Assembly: GCF_001439785.1 (NCBI RefSeq)
Contig: NZ_JYLI01000017.1
Span: 1-64,000, forward strand
DNA: 64,000 nt
Source: Pseudomonas poae
GTDB lineage: Bacteria > Pseudomonadota > Gammaproteobacteria > Pseudomonadales > Pseudomonadaceae
Reading direction: 5' to 3'
Shown: positions 8,326 through 45,862 of the stretch, piece after piece
How the letters are laid out: every line of letters begins with the position of its first letter
Position numbering within the stretch: position 1 is the stretch's first letter
Made by a program: the position numbers and the translations under genes
The notes under the pieces: generated by a model
The model's input: only the letters and a program-made list of their open reading frames with translations
What the model was told of the DNA's origin: nothing
Database searches by the model: none

Positions 8326-8404
<79 letters not shown>

Positions 8405-10697: not shown

Positions 10698-11447
10698 GTC
10701 AAAGTGTGGTCAAAGTAATAGTCGGCGCCAGCGTGTTGCGATCTACACGGTGAGTTGAATTCAACACTCAATGCTGGCGTGGATCGTGCGCGCCGGCGAG
10801 TCGACCCCCGCGCCGTGGGTTTGGTCTGGGCCTAGCCAGGTTGCCAGTGGAAAACACTGAAAAAGTCTGGAAACCACAGTGGAAACCAGCACCTGGCAAC
10901 CGCTCGCTTTGGTAACTTCCCGTGGTAACCAGCGTGGTAGCCGCTGGCCGGGTTCGCACCAGGTTCGCGTAAGAGGGTGCGAACCAGAGGTGCGAACCTC
11001 AGTGCGAACCTGCTGCCGGTACGCGCCCAGAATGCGTACCAACCGTGCGTACCGATCTGCGTAATTGCTGTGCGCAATTTGCGCAGTTACTGCGCAGTCC
11101 AGAGGCCGTTGCTGAGGCTTGAGCATCTGCGGTCCGCCAGGGCATCACGCAGCCCAGTGCGTGAATATGCTGCGTGAAGGGTGCGTGAAACCTTGCTGGC
11201 GGAGGGCTTCGCGCATTGACCGGGTGCGCGACGGGCGTGCGCGAAGCACTGCGCAACATGCGCCGACCTCCACGTGACGCGAGCCTTCCATGGGGCTGTT
11301 TCGCAAACTGTGTGTTGTGGGTAATGACCTGTGTTAGGTGGTGCTGAGTGTGATCACGAAGGCTTCCCATCGGCTAAATCGGGCATCTGGCTTTCGCCGC
11401 GACTCGAGGTCTTGCGTCTGCTCAGCATCAATAGTGAGATATTCAAG
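10314..11447. other. 1.1 kb gene-free region packed with short repeated words
   Basis: No open frame here looks like a gene. The left half has three members of the GTC-pair repeat family (10501, 10578, 10673). The right half (10848-11257) is a dense array of octamers 9-16 bp apart that changes word every two to four copies. A perfect palindrome GTTGAATTCAAC lies at about 10753. The region separates the left small genes from the cargo. Confidence 0.65.
10848..11257. repeat. Word-switching octamer array
   Basis: Octamers recur about every 12-13 bp. TGGAAACC is at 10868 and 10880, TGGCAACC at 10894, TGGTAACT/TGGTAACC/TGGTAGCC at 10910, 10923 and 10935. GGTGCGAACC or AGTGCGAACC is at 10976, 10989 and 11001, with its exact inverse GGTTCGCACC at 10951. 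TGCGTACC is at 11033 and 11046, TGCGCAAT/TGCGCAGT at 11071, 11080 and 11091, TGCGTGAA at 11158, 11171 and 11182, TGCGCGAC/TGCGCGAA/TGCGCAAC at 11225, 11238 and 11250. Confidence 0.75.
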
Positions 11448-12383
11448 TTAGGTCGTTTCTTTTTTGGGAGGGCTAGTTTTTTTAACTGCCTCGAATTGTA
11501 TGTGAACTTCGTGCGGGAAGCTGATGGGCTCTTTAGAGGAGAAGTCACGCTCAATGTGTAGTTGGTGCCCGTATATTGCAATATCTTCTTCCGATCGGGT
11601 GTCGGGCATGTAAGGCAGTTCGGATTGGAGGGCTACACCAGCTTTGAAGTCCAGCCCAGTTGGGACAAGTGTCATTAGCGAAAAGCTGCCAAAGGCAATC
11701 CAGAATAGGCAGTGTGGGATCGTATTAGTATTTCGAAGATAGAGCCTGTAGACACACGATGTGTACCTTGTTCCCGGCGTAAGTGTTTCGATTACGATGG
11801 CCGGATTGATACTCATCTCCCGATTAGTAAGCGGGTTCAGCCATTCGAGAGTGGGCTTAAGGAGGGGCAGGTATCTTTCATGGGCGACTGATACAGCTAT
11901 TTTGCAGAGTGCCTTGTAGGCCATGTAGGGTACGAAGTGTTTCCTCTGCATCTCCCATGAAACGTGATTGCGATCCTCGTGATGGACGAGCGCATCGTCT
12001 ACGTTAAGCGTGATAGAAATATTATTGGTGTGGCGGTCCATCTGAAACGCGCCAATTTTCTCATCACTGTGTTTTGGCGTTTTCCTAGACTTATTCGTGA
12101 TTCCATTCAGCGCTCTGAATGGATGCGTGTACTTTTCCAAGTGTGGTTCTATTGTATTGCCGAAGTGCTTGTTACAACTGTCACACTCGGAATTGAGTAT
12201 GAGCTGGTGATTGCCGAGGAACTCAGGAATGGCATGAGCCTTATTTTTGAAAGTCACAGACTCACGGCCTAGCCCGCAGAAGCGGCAGATGAATCGCTCA
12301 CCAATGTAATGCTTATGTCCTGCACCGACTATCCCTGCCTCAATTAGTCGGAACCCGTCGAGGCTTTCGTCTTCAACATTCAT
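11448..12383 (-). CDS. HNH-nuclease-like cargo protein
   Basis: The ATG at 12383 has AGGGA eight bases upstream and gives 311 residues. The N-terminal third carries an HNH/zinc-finger pattern: CRFC at 33-36, a histidine in KAHAIPEFLG at 50, and ECDSCN with cysteines 67 and 70 followed by KHFGNTIEP. This arrangement is known from small HNH nuclease families. The remaining 220 residues are unrecognised and could bind DNA or sense a signal. The gene is noticeably AT-richer than the core genome and lies at the left end of the island's cargo. An anti-phage or anti-plasmid role is possible by position and fold, but is inference. Catalytic activity cannot be judged from sequence alone. Confidence 0.75.
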   Translation of the reverse strand: MNVEDESLDGFRLIEAGIVGAGHKHYIGERFICRFCGLGRESVTFKNKAHAIPEFLGNHQLILNSECDSCNKHFGNTIEPHLEKYTHPFRALNGITNKSRKTPKHSDEKIGAFQMDRHTNNISITLNVDDALVHHEDRNHVSWEMQRKHFVPYMAYKALCKIAVSVAHERYLPLLKPTLEWLNPLTNREMSINPAIVIETLTPGTRYTSCVYRLYLRNTNTIPHCLFWIAFGSFSLMTLVPTGLDFKAGVALQSELPYMPDTRSEEDIAIYGHQLHIERDFSSKEPISFPHEVHIQFEAVKKTSPPKKETT

Positions 12384-12754
12384 TTTGTGTCCCTGCACTG
12401 TAAGGTACTCCTCAGCCGGACACCGCCTCTCTGCGAGATTTGAGGCCACTTGCGTGGAGCGCGGCGTGTCAGTGAAGTTTTTTCGACCTGGGGCCGATGG
12501 CAAACTCGCTTCCTATTAGCAAATATCAGCTCCGTAAGAGGTTGTCCAACCCGTCACCCTGTTAACAATTATCAAGGTTGGCGGGCGCCGGACGACTCTG
12601 TGACGGAGATCCCTGTGACGAATGGTAACCGGGCAGGGTGCTTACTTTTGGTGGTTGCCGGAGTGGTTACCTATCGGCTTTGGTAGGCACTAGCCATCTA
12701 TCAACACTTGGCTGAGGGTTGATGCACGCCAGAGAAGAGAGGCTCCCAGGCCTC
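12384..12754. other. Intergenic region upstream of the HNH gene
   Basis: This 371-bp stretch must contain the promoter of the HNH gene. It also holds the left copy of a 30-bp direct repeat (12642-12671) and the base of a hairpin terminator for the next gene. I see no gene in it. Confidence 0.55.
12642..12671 (+). repeat. 30-bp direct repeat, left copy
   Basis: The sequence starts TTACTTTTGGTGGTT and ends GAGTGGTTACC. It matches 14260-14289 at 28 of 30 positions. The two copies bracket the three small genes at 12755-14240. Confidence 0.8.
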
Positions 12755-14363: not shown

Positions 14364-14918
14364 CTAAATGGAACTTGGGCGGATGTCCGTTCCATTCTGA
14401 GTACCCGAAATCCTGAATTTTTGGGTTTCTCCTGAGCTGACCTCGGCTGCCGTTTCCTTCACTGGCTGACCGATCTGCATTGCACAGAGGCCGTTGCCTT
14501 CTTCATCGCCAGCGATGCCAACGATATGCCGACCTGGCTTGACCTTGAATTTCACAATTTCGCCGGTGTCGATGCGGGCGACCTTTTTTCCGTCGATGAG
14601 CACGGTGGCCAAGCAACCGCCAGACGCCCAAAAACCGTTGTCTCGACTAACTGCCAGTGTCGCACCATCAGGAACTTCTGACTGGTAGGCATAGCAGCTC
14701 CGACAAACCATGATGTGGTTGAGGTACTGGTCACGGGCTTGCCGCCATTCGGGCGTGGCGGTGGCGGCGCTTGCGTGTGGGCTCATGATGAGCCGGGGAG
14801 TGCGCTCGACTGGGTTGGCCAGCACCAGGCGTGGGCGAGGCTGGCTATCCACTTTTGGCGAGTCGACCCCGGCAATGGCTGGCGGCAAGTGATCAAGCAG
14901 GCCGGAAAGGAGGCTCAT
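14364..14918 (-). CDS. Hypothetical protein with a PEGA-like segment, 184 residues
   Basis: ATG at 14918 is preceded by GAGGTGA. The frame stays open upstream to 15053, but that part would encode the repeat-rich region and has no ribosome site. The first 55 residues are proline-rich and probably disordered. Cysteines C72 and C75 lie in VCRSCYAYQS. From about 85 the sequence reads as a beta-sandwich like PEGA domains (LIDGKKVARIDTGEIVKF, then VKPGRHIVGIAGD). No signal peptide is visible. Its place beside the replication operon and the possible origin may mean it belongs to the core of the element, not to the cargo. Function unknown. Confidence 0.65.
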   Translation of the reverse strand: MSLLSGLLDHLPPAIAGVDSPKVDSQPRPRLVLANPVERTPRLIMSPHASAATATPEWRQARDQYLNHIMVCRSCYAYQSEVPDGATLAVSRDNGFWASGGCLATVLIDGKKVARIDTGEIVKFKVKPGRHIVGIAGDEEGNGLCAMQIGQPVKETAAEVSSGETQKFRISGTQNGTDIRPSSI

Positions 14919-15273
14919 ACCGTCACCTCGGCCTGATCGCTGGTAATCCAGTGTTCCTGTGATTTCAAAAACACCGGCAACAGCGGCAACAATGGCAACA
15001 GCCCCGCAAACCGTGGCCTCCAGATGTTGCCGATGCTGCCAAACTGTTGCCACCGGTTTTTAACCGGCAACAGTGATAACCAAATGAAGGGAAAGTGCGG
15101 GTCTCTTATGTTGAAAATGAGGTGTGCGTTGCCAGTTGTTGCCTTTTTTTTTATAGGGTGGCAACGGCTGTAAGCCACGCCCCACAAGGCCGTTGCCGGT
15201 GTTGCCACTGTTGCCAGTGATTCTAGGTTCCTGTGAACTTGGGCAATCTGGATTGCTGGTCTTTGACTGACGT
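14919..15273. other. Candidate replication origin: cluster of GTTGCC/GGCAAC words
   Basis: This gene-free stretch lies directly behind the primase-helicase gene. It contains twelve exact copies of GTTGCC or its inverse: 14976, 14985, 14994, 15026, 15046, 15066, 15128, 15138, 15160, 15192, 15201 and 15210. Two triplets have an exact 9-bp period. A T-rich run (15144-15152) lies in the middle. P4-like elements replicate from iteron-bearing sites bound by their own primase-helicase, so an origin is plausible, but this is inference. Confidence 0.55.
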
Positions 15274-17067
15274 TCATACGCCACCGCCTTCACGATCCAT
15301 GATGTCTGGGTCGATCACATAGAGGCGCGCCTGGCCACCGCCAGGGAGTCGGTAGTTTTTGGTTTTACGCTCATTGTCACGGCGTGCGAGGACGTTTGCG
15401 CCCTCCAATGCTTTGATGATGCGAGACAGGCCATATCCGTGCGCGGCCTCGATGAGCGCCGGCTTGTTGAACAGGTACAGGCGGTTGGTGCCCACCAGCT
15501 CCCAGTAACCGGCCCGGTTGAAAACTTTGGTGTCAGGCGTTTGATCGTCGACATCTGAAAAGCGGCTGCTACCGTGGCGGTCGATAAAGTCCAGGATGCC
15601 GGCCAGGATCTGACGGTCTTCGGCGTTGCCGCTGCCAACCCGGCTGAGCCATTCGCCATACAGCAAACGGCAGTCGGCGAGGGCGGTACCCGGCACCCAA
15701 GGCAGCAGGCCATACGCGATTGCCATTTCACCGGCCAGTGCGATCACCGCGAACCGATCAGCTACGCGGCCAGCTTGGGCGTTGTCTTCTACAAAGCTGG
15801 CGCGAACGCCGGCGAAGTCTTCCAGCAGGCCCGTTCGGTCGTCGCTTTCGAGCAGCTTCTCGACAAAGGCTGGCCCAAGGTGGCCATGGTGGGCGCCGAC
15901 GGCTACGGTGAGTTGTCGGTGAAAGTCCGCTCCCTCAAGCCCGTGCAATTCGTCAAAGGCCCGGTGTGTCCGGGTGCCGGCGTTCACGTCGACCATGCGC
16001 AACTCGGCGCCAGCGTGTGCGGCATTGCCGGATATGGCCGCGTGTTCAGAGAGTGAGCGCTCGCCGCTGGAGAGTGTCAGCAGGCGCCAGCTCAATTTGG
16101 CGCGGCCTTCGCGCTCGCGGGTCATGGTGCCTTTGCCCTGGCCGTTGGCGAGGGAATATGCCATTTCCTGTACGCGCTTGGGGTCGGCGCGCTTGATCTC
16201 ATCCAATGGCAGGATGGTGTCATTGCGGCTCGATGCCTCGATCTCCAGGCCGCCCTTGGTCATGTCCCAACTGGCGGCGAACACGCCCGGGTCGCCCCAT
16301 ACCGACGATCCGATCAGCTGCGCCAGTGACTTGCCGCTTGAACTGTCGCCCACCAGATGAACACCACCGCCCAGCACACCCACCAAACTCAGCAACGGGC
16401 CTGCCAGCGAGCAGCCGATCGCCAGCGTCAGTACCGGGTTGCCCGCGCACTTGGCGGCCACCTCTGATTTCCACAGCGCCAGCTCGCCACGCCGGCTGAA
16501 AAGTACCTGAGCCTTGTTGCTGGCCTGGTACCGCACATTGGCGCTGCCGATGGTTCGCCCAGGCAGCACGAACGCGCCCGACTCATGCCAGCCCGGCCGG
16601 CTGGTGGTGGCAAACACTTCTGCAGGATGCTGGTCGAGCAGGTACTCCATGAACGTGCCGCGTTTCTTGAGGGCGATAATGACGCCCATCCCGAACAAGG
16701 CGCGCCTGGCGTCTTCGCCACTGCCGCCGAACACCTCCATGGCGATGATCCATTCCTTGATGCCGCCCTCGGTGACCAGGCGCAGCAATCGCCCTTCGCT
16801 GTCATCGTCGCTGTTGGTGGTGCGGGCTACGACGGTGACGGGGCTGGAGATCCACTCATCAGTGATAGGCCGGTCGCCGGTATCGCCTTCGGCGTCGTCC
16901 TGGTCAGCGCTGGCGCGCTTGAAGCTATGCCAGTAAACGCCCGGGCGCAGCTTGCGGCCCTTCTCATTGACTACCCAATGCTCATACACCGCCCAGCAGG
17001 GGCGATCTGGCGCAATGGTCGCGGCGTCCGGCCGAAGGTTGATCACGTTGGTGTCAGGCTTGGACAT
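15274..17067 (-). CDS. DUF927-type primase-helicase (replication protein of the element)
   Basis: This 597-residue protein is the likely replicative helicase of the island. The ATG at 17067 overlaps the Toprim gene by 14 bases and follows GGAAAC. Residues 1-190 include the DUF927 entry region (WAVYEHWVVNEKGRKLRPGV). The ATPase core has a Walker A-like loop in HLVGDSSSGKSLAQLIGSS and an acidic Walker B in DTILPLDEIKRADPK. The C-terminal 90 residues (VFNRAGYWELVGTNRLYLFN onward) look like a winged helix, which in related proteins binds DNA. The protein is paired with a separate Toprim primase just upstream, splitting the functions that phage P4 alpha joins in one chain. The GTTGCC cluster follows immediately. 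Confidence 0.88.
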   Translation of the reverse strand: MSKPDTNVINLRPDAATIAPDRPCWAVYEHWVVNEKGRKLRPGVYWHSFKRASADQDDAEGDTGDRPITDEWISSPVTVVARTTNSDDDSEGRLLRLVTEGGIKEWIIAMEVFGGSGEDARRALFGMGVIIALKKRGTFMEYLLDQHPAEVFATTSRPGWHESGAFVLPGRTIGSANVRYQASNKAQVLFSRRGELALWKSEVAAKCAGNPVLTLAIGCSLAGPLLSLVGVLGGGVHLVGDSSSGKSLAQLIGSSVWGDPGVFAASWDMTKGGLEIEASSRNDTILPLDEIKRADPKRVQEMAYSLANGQGKGTMTREREGRAKLSWRLLTLSSGERSLSEHAAISGNAAHAGAELRMVDVNAGTRTHRAFDELHGLEGADFHRQLTVAVGAHHGHLGPAFVEKLLESDDRTGLLEDFAGVRASFVEDNAQAGRVADRFAVIALAGEMAIAYGLLPWVPGTALADCRLLYGEWLSRVGSGNAEDRQILAGILDFIDRHGSSRFSDVDDQTPDTKVFNRAGYWELVGTNRLYLFNKPALIEAAHGYGLSRIIKALEGANVLARRDNERKTKNYRLPGGGQARLYVIDPDIMDREGGGV

Positions 17068-17935
17068 GGGCGAGTTTCCAGTTGGCGAGGTCGTTGAAGT
17101 CGGTGAGGTCATCGGGGGCGCCTTCCGGCCATTCAGGGAAAGCCACTTGGCCACCCACGGCCGCCGCCGCTGCGTTTGCCGCTGCTCGCCCCGGGTTGCC
17201 ATCGGTGAGCCGGTCGTCGTCGCCGGCAATGACGATTGGCTGGCCCGGGTAGCGAGCGCGAAGTGCCATCGCCGCCGGGATCAAGTTGCCCGCGTTCATG
17301 GCAGCGGCAACGACATAGCCGCCGTGCTGGTGGAGGCTGGCGGCCGTCGCCCACCCTTCGCAGATGCAAAGCACAGAACCTGGCTCGATGATGCCCAGCG
17401 GCGAATAGGTGCCCTTGATCCGGCCGCCGAACAGGAAGCGCTTGTCACCGTCCGGCCCGATCCTTTGCAGGTTGACCAAGCGGCCATCCAGGTACAGCGG
17501 GATCAGCAGGTCAGCGCCACGCTGGCGCAGGCCGTAGGAGCGAACCGCCTTGGCAACCAAATACGGGTGGTCGGGCGCGGCCCGGCGTGCATTGCGCCAC
17601 CATTGATTAGCCTTCTCGGCGGCCTGCTGCTGGCGCCGGTTTTGCTCGGCTTCGCGCTGACGCCGGGCCTGGTCGACTCGCTCGCGGATTTGAGCCGCTT
17701 CGCGGGCGTCCACTGGCTCGCGACTACACCACGTGCTGGTGCCACCGGTTTTCCAACTGCCGAAAGCGCCGGACGCGATACCGTCAGTAAACAGTGTGTA
17801 CCAGCCATTGAAGGAGCCAGCCTTGTCGCCTGGAACGTGAAACCGGTGAATGGTGCCGTCGGCCAAGGGGAGCCACTCGAGAGGGCCATAGACGGCCTGG
17901 AGCGCATCACGGAATAGGATCGTTGCGTCAGTCAT
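17054..17935 (-). CDS. Toprim-domain primase
   Basis: This 293-residue protein probably makes primers for replication of the element. The C-terminal half is a Toprim domain: glycine/glutamate motif VLCICEGWATAASLH near 190, MNAGNLIPAAMALRARYPG, and the acidic motif IVIAGDDD near 245 that binds metal. A long basic, glutamine-rich helix (RERVDQARRQREAEQNRRQQ) at about 83-105 joins it to an N-terminal domain with WYTLFTDGIASGAFGSW, a pattern common in P4-like and plasmid primases. No zinc-finger cysteines are seen. The start ATGA overlaps the stop of the 75-residue gene upstream, and the 3' end overlaps the helicase gene, so the two are translated together. Confidence 0.88.
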   Translation of the reverse strand: MTDATILFRDALQAVYGPLEWLPLADGTIHRFHVPGDKAGSFNGWYTLFTDGIASGAFGSWKTGGTSTWCSREPVDAREAAQIRERVDQARRQREAEQNRRQQQAAEKANQWWRNARRAAPDHPYLVAKAVRSYGLRQRGADLLIPLYLDGRLVNLQRIGPDGDKRFLFGGRIKGTYSPLGIIEPGSVLCICEGWATAASLHQHGGYVVAAAMNAGNLIPAAMALRARYPGQPIVIAGDDDRLTDGNPGRAAANAAAAAVGGQVAFPEWPEGAPDDLTDFNDLANWKLAHVQA

Positions 17936-19315: not shown

Positions 19316-19791
19316 TGCGTCCTCCCGGCCGACTCCAGGGAACGGGCAATGGTCATGTGGTGCGAATAACGCTTGAGGCGGGTTGCGAGGCTGGAGTTTG
19401 CGCGGAGGGCGCTCAGTGCCATGCGGCGGTGAGCAAATGCGCGAATCGCGAACGGATTTAGGGCGTGTTTCATGGGTGTAGCTCCCGAATCATGGGAACC
19501 ACCACGGCCTGCCGCCAAGCAGAGAAGGGTGGCGAGTTGCACAGGATTGGCGGACCGGTGATTCAGGAACCCGGCGCACCCGAGGGTGCTCCTGCACAAC
19601 CCGCCATAAAACGAGAATGCGGACACAAAAAAAGCGCCTGCAATCGTAATGGGGGCGCTGTTGCGCCTGAAATCATTCGACCCGCCAAGGTCGTTGTCAG
19701 CAATGTGACGGGAAGAACCATACCGGCGGGCGTGATTGCTTGCAACAAAAGTTATCGACCGTTTATCGCTGATCATGAGCATAGCTGTCAT
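19312..19791 (-). CDS. Ash/Icd-like ORF of P4-type elements, 159 residues
   Basis: The ATG at 19791 overlaps the stop of the Rha-like gene (ATGA) and the stop overlaps the next ATG in the same way, which favours the full 159-residue reading. A second possible start, ATG at 19473 with GGGAG upstream, would give only 53 residues. The middle part (AGAFFVSAFSFYGGLCRSTL, NHRSANPVQLATLLCL) resembles the Ash/Icd-like proteins found next to immunity functions in P4-like satellites. A terminator-like hairpin lies inside this frame (19633-19659). In P4 the equivalent leader makes a regulatory RNA, so the conserved function here may be RNA as well as protein. That link is inference. Confidence 0.55.
   Translation of the reverse strand: MTAMLMISDKRSITFVASNHARRYGSSRHIADNDLGGSNDFRRNSAPITIAGAFFVSAFSFYGGLCRSTLGCAGFLNHRSANPVQLATLLCLAAGRGGSHDSGATPMKHALNPFAIRAFAHRRMALSALRANSSLATRLKRYSHHMTIARSLESAGRTQ
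19627..19659 (-). terminator. Intrinsic-terminator-like hairpin inside the Ash/Icd-like ORF (possible attenuator)
   Basis: On the minus strand AGCGCC and GGCGCT form a six-pair stem around 15 bases, followed directly by seven T residues. It lies between the Rha-like gene and the rest of the operon, where early termination would switch off the replication genes. Confidence 0.55.
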
Positions 19792-20306
19792 GGGCGGAAG
19801 TCCTCAAAACCGAGCGGCAGCTTCAGTTGCTCCCTCAAATGAGCGACGTGCGCGTATACGCCTGGCTTGTCATAGCGCCAGTGGGCCAGGCGTCGACCAC
19901 TGCTGCTGGCTTCCTTCTTGCGAGCCTCCAGCGTCTGGCAGGCGTGTCCATACCGTGCTTCGCGGAACGCCATGATGAGGCTCGCTTTCAGTTCCACAAC
20001 ACGATCGGTATTGCGGGACAACGACAGCAGGAAGAACGCTTGATCCTCATTGAGCAAGGCGAAGCGCTCTGGCCTACCACCAGCAGTTCCGGCCAAGGGT
20101 TTCTCCGTTTGAAACGGAACAACCCCGAACTCTTCAAACTTCGCCAGGTAGCGCTCGATCAGCGCCATTGGGTTTTTGTGCTTGGTTCCCAGTTGCTTCG
20201 CGAGCTGGCGGCTATCCACGCGAGGTTCGCCCTGGTAATCAGTCACGGCAATGTGAGGATTTCCCGGATCACCCTCACCCATCGGCTCAATGATCTTGGT
20301 CGTCAT
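19788..20306 (-). CDS. Rha-family phage regulatory protein
   Basis: This 172-residue protein has the Rha signature: RVDSRQLAKQLGTKHKNPMA, then FEEFGVVPFQTEK, GGRPERFALLNEDQAFFLLS and LSRNTDRVVELKASLIMAF. Rha proteins are phage and satellite regulators known to interfere with lytic growth in hosts lacking IHF. The last 50 residues are a basic helical tail (CQTLEARKKEASSSGRRLAH). The gene overlaps its neighbours by four bases on both sides. A role in controlling the operon is likely but the target is unknown. Confidence 0.82.
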   Translation of the reverse strand: MTTKIIEPMGEGDPGNPHIAVTDYQGEPRVDSRQLAKQLGTKHKNPMALIERYLAKFEEFGVVPFQTEKPLAGTAGGRPERFALLNEDQAFFLLSLSRNTDRVVELKASLIMAFREARYGHACQTLEARKKEASSSGRRLAHWRYDKPGVYAHVAHLREQLKLPLGFEDFRP

Positions 20307-20602
20307 GAGGCCACCTTCTGCACTGGGCCAACACTTAGGTAGTAGGTCGCAACCTTCTGGTGATCGCGGCCTTGATCATCCTTCAGCGTACCCAGGTGGG
20401 TAACGATGCCGTGCCCCTGCGCACGCAGCTCAGATATTCGCGCACCAGGGCGCAGGATGTTCAGAAACATGATGGCTTGGAAGGTGTTGATCGAACCATG
20501 CAGATGCAGGTAAGCCAAAAGGCGCATGCGCTGGGCACTACCACTGGTGTCGCTAATGCTTTGCGCCGAGCAACTCTTCTCGGAATGCAGGATCTTTTCC
20601 AT
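20303..20602 (-). CDS. Winged-helix-turn-helix regulator, 99 residues
   Basis: The ATG at 20602 has GGGGTGG about eight bases upstream; a GTG at 20617 would destroy that spacing. The sequence SAQRMRLLAYLHLHGSINTF, QAIMFLNILRPGARISELRA is the fold of the helix-turn-helix family often found near the start of phage and island operons. It is the first gene of the overlapping operon and may set its expression. The 170 bp between it and alpA probably carry the operon promoter. Confidence 0.75.
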   Translation of the reverse strand: MEKILHSEKSCSAQSISDTSGSAQRMRLLAYLHLHGSINTFQAIMFLNILRPGARISELRAQGHGIVTHLGTLKDDQGRDHQKVATYYLSVGPVQKVAS

Positions 20603-20774
20603 GTCAGGCCACCCCACTATCAGAGTCAGCTTCGGGATGGACGAATTGATGGCGGCAAACTAAACGACGATTAAGCACCAAAGTGTTTAAGGGTACAGGA
20701 AGGGGTAAAGCCGCTTTTTCAAGACAAAGCGATCCTGTCCCCGCGTCAGCGCAGAGTTGATTGGTCATCATGGG

Positions 20775-22052: not shown

Positions 22053-23498
22053 TCACGACATTGCATCGGGGTTTTTCTTTTTCCGGCGCGAGATGGAAAG
22101 CACGTTGCCCATATCAGTGACCTCCCCCAAAGCCTTAGCCAAAGCTCGGTCAAAGAGCTCGATAGCTTTACGTTTCTCTGGCAGCGCCGCTTCGGGATTG
22201 TTTCGGTAGTGCCGAGAAACGACACCTGTCTGGCCATGAGCCTGAAGGAGATCTGACAAACGATCATCAACACCGTGCTTCTGCATCAGCTGTGTGCAGG
22301 TCCGGCGCAGGTCTCTCGGGGAGAACGTCGGGATCTTCGCACCAGCGATTAACGCGTGCTTGGAATCCAGCCAATCTGCAACGGCATGGGTCGGACTACT
22401 GATCACAAAGGGCTGTTTACCGTGTGTAGTCCAGGGCCATGGATGATCACCATTGATTTCCCGTACTTGCCGCATTATGGCAATGGCTCGATCGGAGAGC
22501 GGTACCAAATGCGGCCGGCTCATGGTCTGACCACCTCGCCCCTTGCGGTGAATTAATAGCACCGTGCCCGCGTCTAGATCGTAGTCCCCCCAAGTGGTTT
22601 CGATCAGGTTCTTGATCCGCTGACCGCCAGTTGATATGACAAACTTGAATAGCAGCGCCATTACCGGACCAATTCCGTCTGTACTCTGAACCGTCTCCCA
22701 GAATTGCTTAAGCTCAGCATCAGACAGGGCTCGTTCGACAGGGGCCGAGACTTTATCGACCTTCACCATTGCTGCAGGGTTGATCTCAAGGCTATAGGTC
22801 TTCGCATTGGAGCGACCAACCACACTCTCAGCCGTGAGCCCATGGTTGAATGCCGCCACCAGAAACGAACGCATACGATCCGCCTGCACTTTGGAGCCGC
22901 GCTCCCAGATCGGGTTGAGAATGGTGAGGATGTGGTCAGCCCTAATATCTCGGGCCTTCATCCGCATTACCTCAGGGTGGGGCTCTTGCATGTTCGTCTT
23001 GAGCAGCCGTTCCAACTCCTTCACGACGCCAGGTGTCGCCTTCACGCGGCGCGACTCAATGTAATCCAAGAACAAATCGTGAAAGCTTCCGCGGGCCGCT
23101 TCAATTTCGGCGAGGCGGAAACGTTCTAGCCGTTCCGCTTCTTCCAATGCGGCTGTGGCTGCACGACTAGCCGCGGCCGCTACTTGTTGCACCGAGATGT
23201 GCTCCAAGTACTTGGCAATACCGCCAGCGGCAGCCGCCTCAACTGAAATTCGCAAAGCCTCACCCCGGATACCATCCAAGCTCTGCTCGTCTGTACCCAC
23301 GCGCGGCTTCTTCGCAAGCGTCCCGAGAGGCAGACGCTTGTCGCTGTCAGATGTGCGTTCCCGATAGTAGGCCTGAATAGCTCCGGAAGCTTTACGTTCG
23401 AGCAGCAAAGTCCCCTTTCCGCGAGAGCCGACCGGCTCCGACTGACGAGTCTTTACCGCATAGGCTTCCATCTCGGTCATTCGAGTACGCTTAGCCAT
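22053..23498 (-). CDS. int: Tyrosine-recombinase integrase of the element
   Basis: This 481-residue integrase inserts the element into, and excises it from, the tRNA-Thr gene. ATG at 23498 has GGGGAA five bases upstream; the longer frame to 23612 is less likely. The N-terminal part carries an arm-binding region (to about 135, including a helical stretch) and a core-binding domain (about 137-240). The catalytic domain shows R294 in GGQRIKNLIE, the RDLRR box at 395-399, H421 in AHGQT and the likely nucleophile Y431 in SRHYRNN. The usual first histidine of the HxxR box is arginine (R395), a variant also seen in other island integrases. The gene reads inward from attR, 160 bp from it. Confidence 0.95.
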   Translation of the reverse strand: MAKRTRMTEMEAYAVKTRQSEPVGSRGKGTLLLERKASGAIQAYYRERTSDSDKRLPLGTLAKKPRVGTDEQSLDGIRGEALRISVEAAAAGGIAKYLEHISVQQVAAAASRAATAALEEAERLERFRLAEIEAARGSFHDLFLDYIESRRVKATPGVVKELERLLKTNMQEPHPEVMRMKARDIRADHILTILNPIWERGSKVQADRMRSFLVAAFNHGLTAESVVGRSNAKTYSLEINPAAMVKVDKVSAPVERALSDAELKQFWETVQSTDGIGPVMALLFKFVISTGGQRIKNLIETTWGDYDLDAGTVLLIHRKGRGGQTMSRPHLVPLSDRAIAIMRQVREINGDHPWPWTTHGKQPFVISSPTHAVADWLDSKHALIAGAKIPTFSPRDLRRTCTQLMQKHGVDDRLSDLLQAHGQTGVVSRHYRNNPEAALPEKRKAIELFDRALAKALGEVTDMGNVLSISRRKKKNPDAMS

Positions 23499-23501
23499 TC
23501 T

Positions 23502-23533
23502 TTCCCCGTTTTCCCCATCCGTTCCCCGTTTCT
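23502..23533. repeat. TTCCCCGTT words, possible integrase arm sites (right)
   Basis: TTCCCCGTT occurs at 23502-23510 and 23522-23530 with the related TTCCCCATC between. The 13-mer GTTCCCCGTTTCT at 23521-23533 is identical to 8481-8493 near the left end. The first copy overlaps the ribosome site of the integrase gene, so binding here could also repress it. Confidence 0.5.
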
Positions 23534-23658
23534 CATGCAAAGGTACGCTAACAGGTGAAACATAGAAAGACACCGAATTGGCTACAGACCAAGTAAAACC
23601 TAGACCAAGCAAAACAAGTGATACTCGATGAAGCGGGGCGAAGCCTCAGAGCAAACGG

Positions 23659-23705
23659 CTTGTAATCAGTAGTTCCCGGGTTCGACTCCTGGTGCCGCAC
23701 CATAT
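23659..23705. other. attR: displaced and decayed 3' end of tRNA-Thr
   Basis: This 47-base copy of the tRNA 3' end differs from attL by one substitution in the variable arm and one missing G in the acceptor arm (GCCGCACC in place of GCCGGCACC). It has no 5' half, so it is not a tRNA gene. As the displaced original end it is free to mutate. Confidence 0.9.
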
Positions 23706-42843: not shown

Positions 42844-45188
42844 GCAATCATCATCAAGCCGACCAAACCCCGACCCCGCGCTACAAGCCCTACAAAGGCC
42901 CGGCAGGCGGCTGGGGCGCGCTGATCAGCGTAGCCCAGGCATGGTTGACCAGCGACAATGCGTTGAAAAACCTGCGCATGATGCTCAAGACCAACCAGAA
43001 CGGCGGCTTTGACTGCCCTGGCTGCGCCTGGGGTGACTCGCCGGAAAGCGGCATGGTCAAGTTCTGCGAAAACGGCGCCAAGGCGGTCAACTGGGAGGCC
43101 ACCAAGCGCCGTGTCGATCCGGCATTCTTTGCCAGGCACAGCGTCACCGCGCTGCTGGAGCAGAGCGACTACTGGCTCGAATACCAGGGCCGCCTGACCG
43201 AGCCGATGCGTTATAACGCCGAAACCGACCGCTATCAGCCAGTCAGCTGGGAAGCGGCATTCGACCTGATCGGCAAGCACCTCAACGCCCTGCCCAGCCC
43301 GGACATGGCCGAGTTCTACACCTCGGGCCGTGCCAGCAACGAAGCGGCATACCTGTACCAGCTGTTCGTGCGCGCCTACGGTACCAATAATTTCCCGGAT
43401 TGCTCGAACATGTGCCACGAGGCCAGCGGCGTGGCCCTGGCGCAAAGCGTGGGCGTCGGCAAAGGCACCGTGACCTTCGATGACTTCGAACATGCCGATG
43501 CGATCTTCGTGTGGGGCCAGAACCCCGGCACCAACCACCCGCGCATGCTCGAACCTCTGCGTGAAGCGGTTAAACGCGGCGCCCAGGTGGTGTGCATCAA
43601 CCCGCTCAAAGAGCGCGGCCTCGAACGCTTCCAGCACCCGCAGCATCCGCTGGAAATGCTCACCAACGGTGACAAGCCCACCAACACTGCTTACTTCCGC
43701 CCGGCGCTGGGCGGCGACATGGCCATCCTGCGCGGCATGGCCAAGTTCCTGCTGCTGTGGGAACGCCAGGCGCAGGCCGAAGGCAAGGAAGCGGTGTTCG
43801 ACCATGACTTCCTCAACGAACACACCGCCAACGTGCTCGACTACCTGGGCAAGATCGACGACACCTCGTGGGATGAAATCGTCGAGCAGTCAGGGCTTAC
43901 CCTGGTCGAGATCGAGCAAGCCGCGCGCATGTACGCCAAGGGCAAGAACGTGATCATGTGCTGGGCGATGGGCATCACCCAGCATCGCCACTCGGTGCCG
44001 ACTATCCAGGAAATCGCCAACCTGATGCTGCTGCGCGGCAACATCGGCCGCCCAGGCGCCGGCCTATGCCCGGTGCGTGGCCACAGCAACGTGCAGGGCG
44101 ACCGCACCATGGGCATCAACGAGCGCCCACCGGTGGCCTTCCTCGACTCCCTGGAGCGGCGTTTCCAGTTCCAGGTGCCGCGCACCAACGGCCACAACGT
44201 GGTGGAAGCGATTCACGCCATGCTCGAAGGTCGCTCCAAAGTCTTCATAGCCCTGGGCGGTAACTTTGCCCAGGCCACGCCGGACAGTTCGCGCACCTTC
44301 GAAGCGCTGCGCAACTGCGACCTGACGGTGCAGATCAGCACCAAGCTCAACCGCAGCCATTTGATGCACGGTAAGGACGCACTGATTTTGCCGTGCCTGG
44401 GCCGCACCGACATCGACATCCAGGCCGACGGCCCCCAAGCGGTGACGGTGGAAGACTCGTTCAGCATGGTTCACGGCTCCAATGGCCAGTTGCAGCCGCT
44501 GTCGAGGCTGATGAAGTCGGAGCCTGCGATCATCGCTGGCATCGCCGCCGCCACCTTGGGCAGCAAGCCGGTGGACTGGAACTGGCTGGTGGCCGATTAC
44601 GGGCGCATTCGCGACCTGATCGCCGACACCATTCCAGGCTTCAAGGATTTCAACGAACGCATCAAGCACCCAGGCGGGTTCTACCTCGGCAACTCGGCCG
44701 GCGCACGTCGCTGGAACACCCCATTGGGCCGCGCCAACTTCCGCGCCAACATTCTGCCCAAAGACCTGATCCACGAACGCACTCACGCCACAGGCCGCGT
44801 GCCGGACCTGATCATGCAGTCGATGCGCTCCCACGATCAGTACAACACCACCATTTATGGCCTGGATGATCGTTATCGCGGAGTGAAGGGCCAGCGTGAC
44901 GTACTGTTCGTCAACGAAGCAGACATCATCCGCCTGGGCTTCAAGCCGGGGCAGAAGGCCGACATTGTGTCGCTGTGGGAAGACGGCCGTGAACGCCGCG
45001 TGAAGGGCTTCACTCTGCTGGCCTTTGATATTCCGGCGGGTCAGGCCGCCGCGTATTACCCGGAAGTGAACCCGCTGGTGCCGCTGGAAAGCACCGGGGA
45101 CGGCAGCCATACGCCGACCTCGAAATTCGTGGCGATCCGCCTGGAAGCGGCGAGTGACAACGGGTTGATCATGGCCCGCACTGCATAA
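42840..45188 (+). CDS. FdhF/YdeP-family molybdopterin oxidoreductase
   Basis: This 782-residue protein belongs to the formate dehydrogenase alpha / YdeP group. The start (GTG 42840) overlaps fdhD. The N-terminal FDCPGCAWGD keeps only C59 and C62 of the usual iron-sulfur ligands. Molybdopterin-binding stretches follow: EFYTSGRASNEAAYLYQLFV, DCSNMCHEASG, FVWGQNPGTNHPR and RPGAGLCPVRGHSNVQGDRT. The C-terminal domain has ERTHATGRVPDLIM and FVNEADIIRLGF. There is no Tat signal, so it is cytoplasmic. E. coli YdeP is linked to acid resistance; the physiological substrate here is not certain. Confidence 0.93.
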   Translation: MSNHHQADQTPTPRYKPYKGPAGGWGALISVAQAWLTSDNALKNLRMMLKTNQNGGFDCPGCAWGDSPESGMVKFCENGAKAVNWEATKRRVDPAFFARHSVTALLEQSDYWLEYQGRLTEPMRYNAETDRYQPVSWEAAFDLIGKHLNALPSPDMAEFYTSGRASNEAAYLYQLFVRAYGTNNFPDCSNMCHEASGVALAQSVGVGKGTVTFDDFEHADAIFVWGQNPGTNHPRMLEPLREAVKRGAQVVCINPLKERGLERFQHPQHPLEMLTNGDKPTNTAYFRPALGGDMAILRGMAKFLLLWERQAQAEGKEAVFDHDFLNEHTANVLDYLGKIDDTSWDEIVEQSGLTLVEIEQAARMYAKGKNVIMCWAMGITQHRHSVPTIQEIANLMLLRGNIGRPGAGLCPVRGHSNVQGDRTMGINERPPVAFLDSLERRFQFQVPRTNGHNVVEAIHAMLEGRSKVFIALGGNFAQATPDSSRTFEALRNCDLTVQISTKLNRSHLMHGKDALILPCLGRTDIDIQADGPQAVTVEDSFSMVHGSNGQLQPLSRLMKSEPAIIAGIAAATLGSKPVDWNWLVADYGRIRDLIADTIPGFKDFNERIKHPGGFYLGNSAGARRWNTPLGRANFRANILPKDLIHERTHATGRVPDLIMQSMRSHDQYNTTIYGLDDRYRGVKGQRDVLFVNEADIIRLGFKPGQKADIVSLWEDGRERRVKGFTLLAFDIPAGQAAAYYPEVNPLVPLESTGDGSHTPTSKFVAIRLEAASDNGLIMARTA

Positions 45189-45202
45189 ATTACAGGCACA
45201 AA

Positions 45203-45232
45203 AAAGGCCGCTTTTTGCATAAAAGCGGCCGT
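45203..45232. terminator. Hairpin after the oxidoreductase gene
   Basis: GGCCGCTTTT and AAAAGCGGCC pair perfectly around TGCAT. AAAAAA lies upstream, giving a T-run only on the minus strand, so it is a weak terminator in the plus direction. Confidence 0.55.
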
Positions 45233-45297
45233 TCCGAAGTAGATAGAGACTGGTCAAAACGACTTAAGTTCCCTATACAAAACAGCAAGTTAGCGAA

Positions 45298-45307
45298 TTG
45301 TATACAA
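45298..45307. promoter_or_regulatory. TTGTATACAA operator-like palindrome
   Basis: The perfect 10-bp palindrome TTGTATACAA lies 82 bp before the glycine-zipper gene's ATG. Palindromes of this form are typical of GntR-family regulators. The regulator is not in the window. Confidence 0.35.
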
Positions 45308-45388
45308 CTATTGCCACTGGTCGGATTTCGATTGTCAGCATTCTCCTGCGACCTCAGGATCGCGGCGTCATCCTCTTGAGGTCTCCCT

Positions 45389-45862
45389 ATGAAGTTCTCC
45401 TCGATTCTCTTGCTGTCCTTTAGCCTCGTCAGCGGCGCAGCCATGGCGGGTGGCACCACCGAAGCCGGTGTGGGCGGCGCATTGGGTGGGGTTCTGGGTT
45501 CGGTCGTAGGCCAGCAGATCGGCGGCAACACAGGTTCGGCCATCGGTGCAGCCTTGGGCGGCGCAGGCGGCAGCGCCGTGGGTGCCGACAAACGCAGCCG
45601 TGGCGAAGCCGCCATCGGCGGTGCATTGGGCGCGGCCGGTGGCAACGTGGTAGGTCGCAGTGTAGGCGGCAACACCGGCAGCCTGGTGGGCGCAGCCGCC
45701 GGCGGTGGTGCCGGGGGCGCGCTGGGCAACTACATGGGCAACAAGAGCGATAACGATGATCGTCGTTACCGTGGACGCGATAACCGTCGTTATGACCGTG
45801 ATGACCATCGCGGCCGTGGCCATGCCTATGGGCATCGCAAGCATCATCATCGCCACCGCTGA
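45389..45862 (+). CDS. Glycine-zipper envelope protein, 157 residues
   Basis: A signal peptide (MKFSSILLLSFSLVSGAAMA) precedes a run of glycine-zipper repeats from about 25 to 118 (GGALGGVLGSVVGQQIGG, AIGGALGAAGGNVVGRSVGG), which form paired membrane-inserting helices. The last 35 residues are extremely basic and histidine-rich (RYDRDDHRGRGHAYGHRKHH). Such proteins occur in the outer membrane or periplasm; function unknown. The histidine tail could bind metal. Confidence 0.8.
   Translation: MKFSSILLLSFSLVSGAAMAGGTTEAGVGGALGGVLGSVVGQQIGGNTGSAIGAALGGAGGSAVGADKRSRGEAAIGGALGAAGGNVVGRSVGGNTGSLVGAAAGGGAGGALGNYMGNKSDNDDRRYRGRDNRRYDRDDHRGRGHAYGHRKHHHRHR

Follow-up and report, generated by a model that had tools for sequence, protein, structure and literature searches.

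A candidate iteron origin beside the DUF927 helicase of a phage-satellite-type element in Pseudomonas poae

The integrated element and its iteron array

The window, by which we mean the whole 64,000-nucleotide stretch of Pseudomonas poae DNA analysed here, contains an element of about 15.3 kb. We place its integration at a tRNA-Thr gene because a 59-bp stretch that spans its 3' part recurs beside a tyrosine integrase gene (Table 1). The element encodes a DUF927 helicase (Pfam, 4e-62; PHROG DNA primase, 1.2e-92), a TOPRIM primase protein of the same replication module, two putative regulators, and a C4 antisense RNA, and an HNH_5 endonuclease gene is found at 11448-12503 (Pfam, 2.5e-9). No capsid, portal, or terminase family was detected among 20 proteins scanned with Pfam and 10 scanned with PHROGs, which represent a subset of the open reading frames of the element, and PADLOC returned no match for six element proteins. 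Elsewhere in the window, Rfam identifies the Pseudomonas sRNA P34 at 45126-45489 (167.7 bits). The same genome contains two more DUF927 genes (L169, G000:C33:45354-46988; L170, G000:C7:9434-11068) with open frames of 974 codons and 34% identity to the window helicase, and neither is followed by an array like the one described here within 1.4 kb downstream.

The array begins about 60 bp past the stop codon of the DUF927 helicase gene. A count across the 64-kb window finds twelve exact GTTGCC/GGCAAC words at 14976-15215: GGCAAC starts at 14976, 14985, 14994, 15066, and 15160, and GTTGCC starts at 15026, 15046, 15128, 15138, 15192, 15201, and 15210. Read along the helicase gene on the minus strand, the layout is >>><>><>><<<, with a 9-bp triplet at each outer end. 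Both the twelve words and the exact 9-bp period of the two triplets had been reported in the initial annotation, and every copy was found where it was described. The words fall into two sets around a middle spacer whose A+T content of 57% compares with 43% for the element and 40% for the window, a modest contrast. This spacer is a possible melting site, and a stretch with 76% A+T lies at 15144-15160, inside the proximal iteron set. Two direct copies of GTTCCTGTGA flank the array, and the iteron words form long imperfect inverted repeats with 63-nt arms that are 73% complementary. The array DNA is intergenic; the open reading frames at 14915-15277 and 14364-15053 are entries of a mechanical list, and the gene downstream of the array, judging from its reading frame, most likely starts at an ATG near 14921.

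The word GTTGCC/GGCAAC occurs 86 times in the whole window, against 57 expected from dinucleotide shuffles. This rate equals 0.32 copies per 240 bp, so the twelve copies lie far above chance, as had been claimed from an expectation of about 0.1 per 240 bp that now appears somewhat low. When 240-bp blocks taken in 20-bp steps were ranked by their commonest 6-mer, the array block came out on top with 11 copies, and the best block elsewhere reached 5. GTTGCC words also recur with a 306-bp period at 1-2700 (197, 503, and 809; 242, 548, and 854), which suggests a gene with tandem coding repeats.

Table 1. Coordinates of the element and candidate origin features in the window
Feature	Position	Strand	Remark
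Attachment-site copy in the 3' part of the tRNA-Thr gene	8346..8404	+	tRNA-Thr gene at 8326-8401
Candidate replication origin	14950..15236	.	Two sets of 6-bp iterons, twelve in all, with an A+T-richer middle between them
GTTCCTGTGA, left copy of direct repeat flanking the array	14953..14962	+	
Outer iteron triplet	14976..14999	-	9-bp period, GGCAAC on the + strand
Three iterons of the distal set	15026..15071	.	15026 +, 15046 +, 15066 -
Middle spacer between the two iteron sets	15072..15127	.	57% A+T
Proximal-set iterons	15128..15165	.	15128 and 15138 in the same direction, 15160 inverted
Inverted iteron pair, 32 bp apart	15160..15197	.	Encloses spacer element kept across word classes
Outer iteron triplet nearest the helicase gene	15192..15215	+	9-bp period
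GTTCCTGTGA, right copy of direct repeat flanking the array	15227..15236	+	
DUF927 helicase, likely initiator	15274..17067	-	597 aa from likely ATG; mechanical ORF to 17229
Helicase C-terminal winged-helix domain, predicted origin-binding domain	15277..15642	-	
Codon of wing residue Asn625	15355..15357	-	Co-varies with iteron base 3
TOPRIM primase protein	17054..17935	-	Same replication module
C4 antisense RNA	19525..19611	-	86.1 bits
Rha-like protein, putative regulator	19788-20306		
HTH_39 protein, putative regulator	20303-20617		
Tyrosine integrase	22053..23612	-	
Other attachment-site copy, adjoining the integrase	23648..23705	+	91.5% over 59 columns

Conservation of the array and switching of its word

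We compared 138 loci that contain a related helicase: 30 from a genus search, in which such a helicase was present in 118 of 398 genomes, 21 viral contigs, 80 of 93 confirmed genome contigs, and 7 named records. These sets overlap, leaving 109 unique downstream stretches among the 138. At least six copies of one word lie within 420 bp after the stop codon in 128 of the 138 loci, mostly in one layout, so the clustering beside homologous primase genes on which the initial annotation had staked its reading was recovered. The word is GGGAAC in 78 loci, GGCAAC in 44, and GGGAAT in 2, and GGGGAC, GTTGCA, GGTAAC, and GGGACA were found once each. GTTGCC itself is therefore not the conserved feature it was taken for; the clustering and the layout are conserved while the word switches as a block. 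Blocks of 300 bp with at least six copies of one 6-mer occur just after the gene in 102 of 108 cases and elsewhere in the same loci in 12 of 3,491. Among the loci with a strong block elsewhere, at least one (L111) merely has its array displaced downstream. A search of the array DNA against phages gave no match.

A layout that starts with >>><>>, with steps near 9, 9, 32, 22, and 10, is common to the window, a Salmonella plasmid record with a 32% identical helicase and the word GGTAAC (L137), and a Legionella plasmid with the word GGGACA (L138). The same layout also lies beside helicases of 55% identity. The third and fourth iterons form the inverted pair; their distance is exactly 32 bp in 90 of 115 loci, and the spacer element between them is common to different word classes. 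The origins of L022, L038, and L049 have the word order <><<<>>><>, which suggests from the sequence that the array halves were exchanged or inverted.

The usual array place is empty in 10 of the 138 loci. In L111 the array is displaced to +1215, L036 stops at a contig end, the helicase end is broken in L109 and L110, L101 appears to be truncated, and L136 has no such array after the helicase gene. No array was found at the usual place in L051, L133, L134, and L135, which are one kind of element; L134 has six GGGAAC words in three pairs at +663 to +818. L133 to L135 are the Pseudomonas aeruginosa records vB_Pae_U10, pHS87b, and plasmid p3, which share one element; it has genes for an integrase, a TOPRIM protein, a P2-type capsid, and a DUF927 helicase of 54% identity.

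Switching of the word as a block is visible within individual arrays. Among 97 arrays counted, 29 of the 37 GGCAAC arrays have no other GGNAAC word and 8 have one; 30 of the 60 GGGAAC arrays have none, 28 have one, and 2 have two. We also aligned six GGCAAC/GGGAAC origin pairs, which match at 10 or 11 iterons per pair. These iterons differ every time at base 3 only, with spacers that are 59-80% identical, and this points to one origin scaffold whose whole word set changes the same base. The spacers of L099, for example, are 76% and 80% identical to those of L086 and L104, and base 3 is the sole difference in 11 of 11 aligned words. Four named genomes with two elements each, compared with avoidance of incompatibility in mind, carry different words in L067/L094 and L092/L105 and the same word in L069/L100 and L086/L104.

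A second repeat-rich intergenic stretch lies at 10820-11270, about 4 kb from the candidate origin, and contains the words GGAAACC, GGTAACC, GTGCGAACC, GTGCGTACC, TGCGCAATTTGCGCA, and TGCGTGAA. The initial annotation saw a GGNAACC theme linking this 10.8-kb array to the origin. A blastn search with 10701-11320 shows that it recurs in 20 fetched loci of both word classes, including the element phiAH14b. GGNAAC words are present in 17 of the 20 extracted stretches and are nearly all of A, C, and T types regardless of class, with the G type found once each in L064, L061, and L058. The proposed link did not hold, as GGA, GGC, and GGT types occur in both classes without switching, and we rejected the 10.8-kb array as part of the origin because its words do not follow the initiator class.

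To cover the wider DUF927 family, we turned to distant loci whose downstream DNA extends for at least 800 bp; 128 unique ones were taken from PF06048 searches of 369, 398, and 293 genomes (27, 48, and 23 with a match), a genus search, and viral contigs. At least seven copies of one 6-mer per 300-bp block were found in 42 of the 128 loci, and at least six in 65; in 800 bp taken from within the gene, the corresponding counts are 0 and 5 of 128. The words vary, with GGTGAC, GGGGAC, CGTGAC, GGTTAC, and TGGGAC among others. Most loci of a Pseudomonas subfamily with helicases of about 970 aa have no array after the gene, and L176, L177, L179, L183, and L225 of this subfamily have GGAACA-type words further on. 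Arrays as a family-wide rule thus hold only partly: at the seven-copy threshold (42/128), they often follow DUF927 genes but are not a general feature.

Wing residue 625, iteron base 3, and the spread of the switch

Residues could be aligned for 136 of the 138 proteins (L121 and L124 are too short), of which 107 are unique: 94 rows with the two main words, 7 without an array in place, and 6 with other words. Across the 94 rows, which are related, unevenly sampled, and mostly from Pseudomonas, all 35 with GGCAAC have Asn at residue 625, and all 59 with GGGAAC have Lys (57) or Arg (2) there. The mutual information of column 625 with word class equals the full class entropy (0.952), and the next column reaches 0.65, which makes 625 the sole perfect column. 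Columns 613, 619, and 620 of the same domain come next, and these three, together with column 633 of the C-terminal part, also co-vary strongly with the word, so several residues, 625 among them, may make contact. In the model of the C-terminal domain (pLDDT 85), residue 625 sits in the wing strand (model residue 96, strand 95-98).

We assessed this association against a helicase tree built without the C-terminal end (columns 75-560; 94 rows, 91 with both traits; partial L036, L048, L109, L110, and L112 excluded). Like our other trees, it is a quick tree with many open forks, and on it the word changes 12 times, with 5 changes forced by starred branches. In each of the five independent pairs on starred branches, residue 625 changes along with the word; the sign test gives p 0.0625, the lowest value that five pairs allow. 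Two loci without an array at the usual place have Asn625. A GGCAAC array was searched for in L213 on this prediction and lies at +1053; the displaced array of L111 is likewise GGCAAC and was recognised afterwards, not predicted. From these sequence comparisons, we infer that residue 625 itself may read iteron base 3.

The correspondence is not universal. Ser625 rows of the subfamily carry GGGAAT (L129 and L130) or GGGGAC (L106), and in other subfamilies L357 combines GGCAAC with Arg and L361 combines GGGAAC with Asn at column 625. In a family-wide test of 55 dereplicated rows and 111 C-terminal columns, in which distant word frames were set by hand and the shuffles ignore relatedness, the top-ranked column for word position 4 was residue 625 (z 5.0), which came second for position 3 (z 4.8). 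Columns 639, 593, and 582 scored nearly equally for position 3, as did 643 and 592 for position 4. We thus rejected a universal one-residue code, since L357 and L361 contradict it and other columns score alike; the correspondence is strict only within the subfamily, and there for its two main words.

We evaluated how the switch spreads by counting word changes on trees of 72 rows with at least 74% helicase identity and at least nine word copies, excluding L022, L038, and L049 for their inverted layout. The word changes 13 times on the tree of helicase-body DNA (8 forced by starred branches), 5 times on the tree of the C-terminal part before the wing (1 forced), 3 times on the masked-origin tree (2 forced), and 3 times on the combined tree of the C-terminal part and masked origin (1 forced). 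Because the body tree needs 13 changes and the combined tree 3, the 3' end of the gene and the adjoining origin seem to travel as a cassette via recombination. L017 and L001, for instance, are 93-95% identical over the C-terminal part and origin, 86% over the helicase body, and 60% over the DNA past the origin. Besides recombination, we read a few probable true word switches from the alignments, such as L099 versus L086 and L104. Such switches would yield initiator-origin pairs that ignore each other.

Related initiators, competing readings, and biological meaning

The full-length helicase model (pLDDT 71.6, with residues 277-370 poorly predicted) matches SaPIbov1 Rep best (PDB 8TCH; Z 21.3, rmsd 6.2, 450 aligned) and SCCmec Cch second best (PDB 5DGK; Z 18.6, rmsd 4.7, 442 aligned). 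Both lie far above all other rows in the structure search, and a sequence-profile search returned the same two structures and no other. SaPIbov1 Rep is also the best match of the C-terminal domain alone (Z 10.5, rmsd 3.1, 105 aligned), which further resembles TcpK on oriT DNA (Z 9.5, rmsd 2.9, 96 aligned). The origin-binding domain of P4 (1KA8) is absent among the 50 structure matches listed for this domain. The likeness to SaPIbov1 Rep is distant, with 12-14% identity in aligned residues; the SaPI host is Gram-positive, and the window element, unlike SaPIbov1, encodes a stand-alone TOPRIM protein that is related to the one in P4. Cch, described as a DUF927 helicase in the available part of PMC7581432, belongs to a staphylococcal cassette element.

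In the available parts of the literature, SaPI Rep binds iterons directly downstream of its own gene via its C-terminal domain (PMC7581432), and the DNA 3' of rep in Gram-negative PICIs holds an A+T-rich region with an iteron set on each side, an arrangement whose function was demonstrated for EcCICFT073 (PMC6092414). C4 matches are likewise reported in Gram-negative PICI-type elements (PMC10111431, available part). The window has the features of a PICI/SaPI pri-rep-ori segment: an initiator helicase gene followed by the array, sets that flank an A+T-rich stretch, and the Rep/Cch fold with a winged helix. Our comparison with the EcCICFT073 pri-rep-ori, likened by its partly available description, rests on an origin 3' of rep, two iteron sets, and an A+T-rich middle. 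Because the helicase fold matches SaPIbov1 Rep and Cch and the origins of SaPIs and PICIs sit 3' of rep, the window array is, by analogy, a putative origin of the pri-rep-ori kind. As an origin, the array is of a known kind; our literature search, which was weak on subscription papers, found nothing on DUF927 iterons in Pseudomonas satellites.

The initial annotation had instead invoked P4-like satellites, and this analogy is borne out in part. The P4 record shows crr immediately 3' of alpha, at the same place as the window array, and the type 1 repeats of crr are like GGTGAACA. The TOPRIM part of P4 alpha matches the window TOPRIM protein at 43% over 118 aa, and the window element has a C4-type immunity RNA, as in the P4 family, although such RNAs are reported in other elements too. 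The helicase does not fit. P4 alpha unites a zinc ribbon, TOPRIM, a D5_N/DUF5906 helicase, and a Pox_D5 end without DUF927, whereas in the window TOPRIM is a protein of its own and the helicase is of the DUF927 type, with SaPIbov1 Rep and SCCmec Cch as its nearest relatives of solved structure, and a pairwise search of the P4 alpha helicase against the window helicase found no similarity. By these comparisons, the window element is apparently like P4 in its TOPRIM protein, C4 RNA, and repeat placement and unlike it in its helicase. Iterons 3' of a primase-helicase are also not diagnostic of the P4 family because SaPIs and PICIs share this placement. The proposal of a candidate origin with iterons beside the primase-helicase thus gains support from the 128 of 138 loci, and a P4-alpha-like helicase has to be dropped from it.

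Among named elements, phiAH14b of Pseudomonas sp. ANT_H14 (KU708005) comes nearest: its helicase is 91.5% identical, and its array has the same place and layout. Its word is GGGAAC with Lys, versus GGCAAC with Asn in the window, and its array is that of L009/L062-type loci. According to the available part of its description, phiAH14b was induced with mitomycin C, was found in phiAH14a capsids, and is proposed to be a helper-dependent satellite of phiAH14a; autonomous replication is inferred there from the primase, and that part of the text names no origin (PMC4936722).

We consider it highly probable, at roughly 0.88, that the array is the replication origin of an integrated phage-satellite-type element and that the DUF927 helicase of the element is its initiator. 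Once the element is induced and excised, the C-terminal winged helix of the helicase would bind the twelve iterons, and the protein would probably sit there as two oligomers, one per iteron set. The middle spacer would then melt, the helicase would load and unwind, and the TOPRIM primase would start synthesis with host enzymes, leading to replication of the element.

It is unlikely that the array is instead a cis-required accessory region like P4 crr, with synthesis starting elsewhere in the element. The P4 record lends this reading some weight, since crr, with repeats of the same type, occupies the matching place directly after alpha and the annotated P4 origin lies about 4.5 kb from it, but the only other repeat-rich intergenic stretch noticed in the window element is the 10.8-kb array, with its mixed words and no class switching, and the region 3' of rep in SaPIs and PICIs is itself described as the origin (PMC6092414 and PMC7581432, available parts). 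We regard as quite improbable an operator array for a regulator of the element that controls the genes after the helicase rather than replication. The array does lie between two genes on one strand, and the Rha-like and HTH_39 proteins are putative regulators that could serve; however, word switching goes along with a residue in the helicase itself, and the arrays of L111 and L213, 1.05-1.2 kb away, still carry the word that fits the helicase residue. Short words do cluster now and then, and the first 3 kb of the window are rich in GTTGCC with tandem-repeat spacing, but chance or low-complexity repetition without function has a negligible probability given the strong excess over control blocks, the same layout beside helicases of 55% identity, and the block-wise switching.

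If the array is the origin, its pairing with the helicase offers a way to find the origins of other DUF927 elements. More tentatively, and at somewhat less than even odds, we propose a DUF927 recognition code in which residue 625 reads base 3 of about 12 iterons and the C-terminal end and origin form a mobile specificity cassette. A similar module is described, in the available parts of two papers, for PLE of Vibrio cholerae: the DNA-binding domain of RepA and the origin iterons co-vary and were swapped as a module at least twice, and changes in ori, with the RepA_N domain and ori exchanged, escape the phage nuclease Odn (PMC8263062). This swap resembles the cassette of the window family, but the PLE initiator is a RepA_N protein, not a predicted helicase (PMC7145576), and that of the window family is a DUF927 helicase. 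The PLE/Odn case is a precedent, not evidence, for selection of the switch in the window family.

Phage satellites must copy only themselves amid relatives and helpers. If the proposed code is true, satellites could stay blind to each other's initiators or escape Odn-like attack directed at their origins. The code might be readable from sequence, as the wing column is the best and second-best predictor of iteron bases 4 and 3, respectively, across the family. Natural pairs differ at one base in about 11 repeats and at one residue, in 94 of 94 rows, so a change of origin specificity at many sites is directly testable, and the series offers origins that may not cross-talk.
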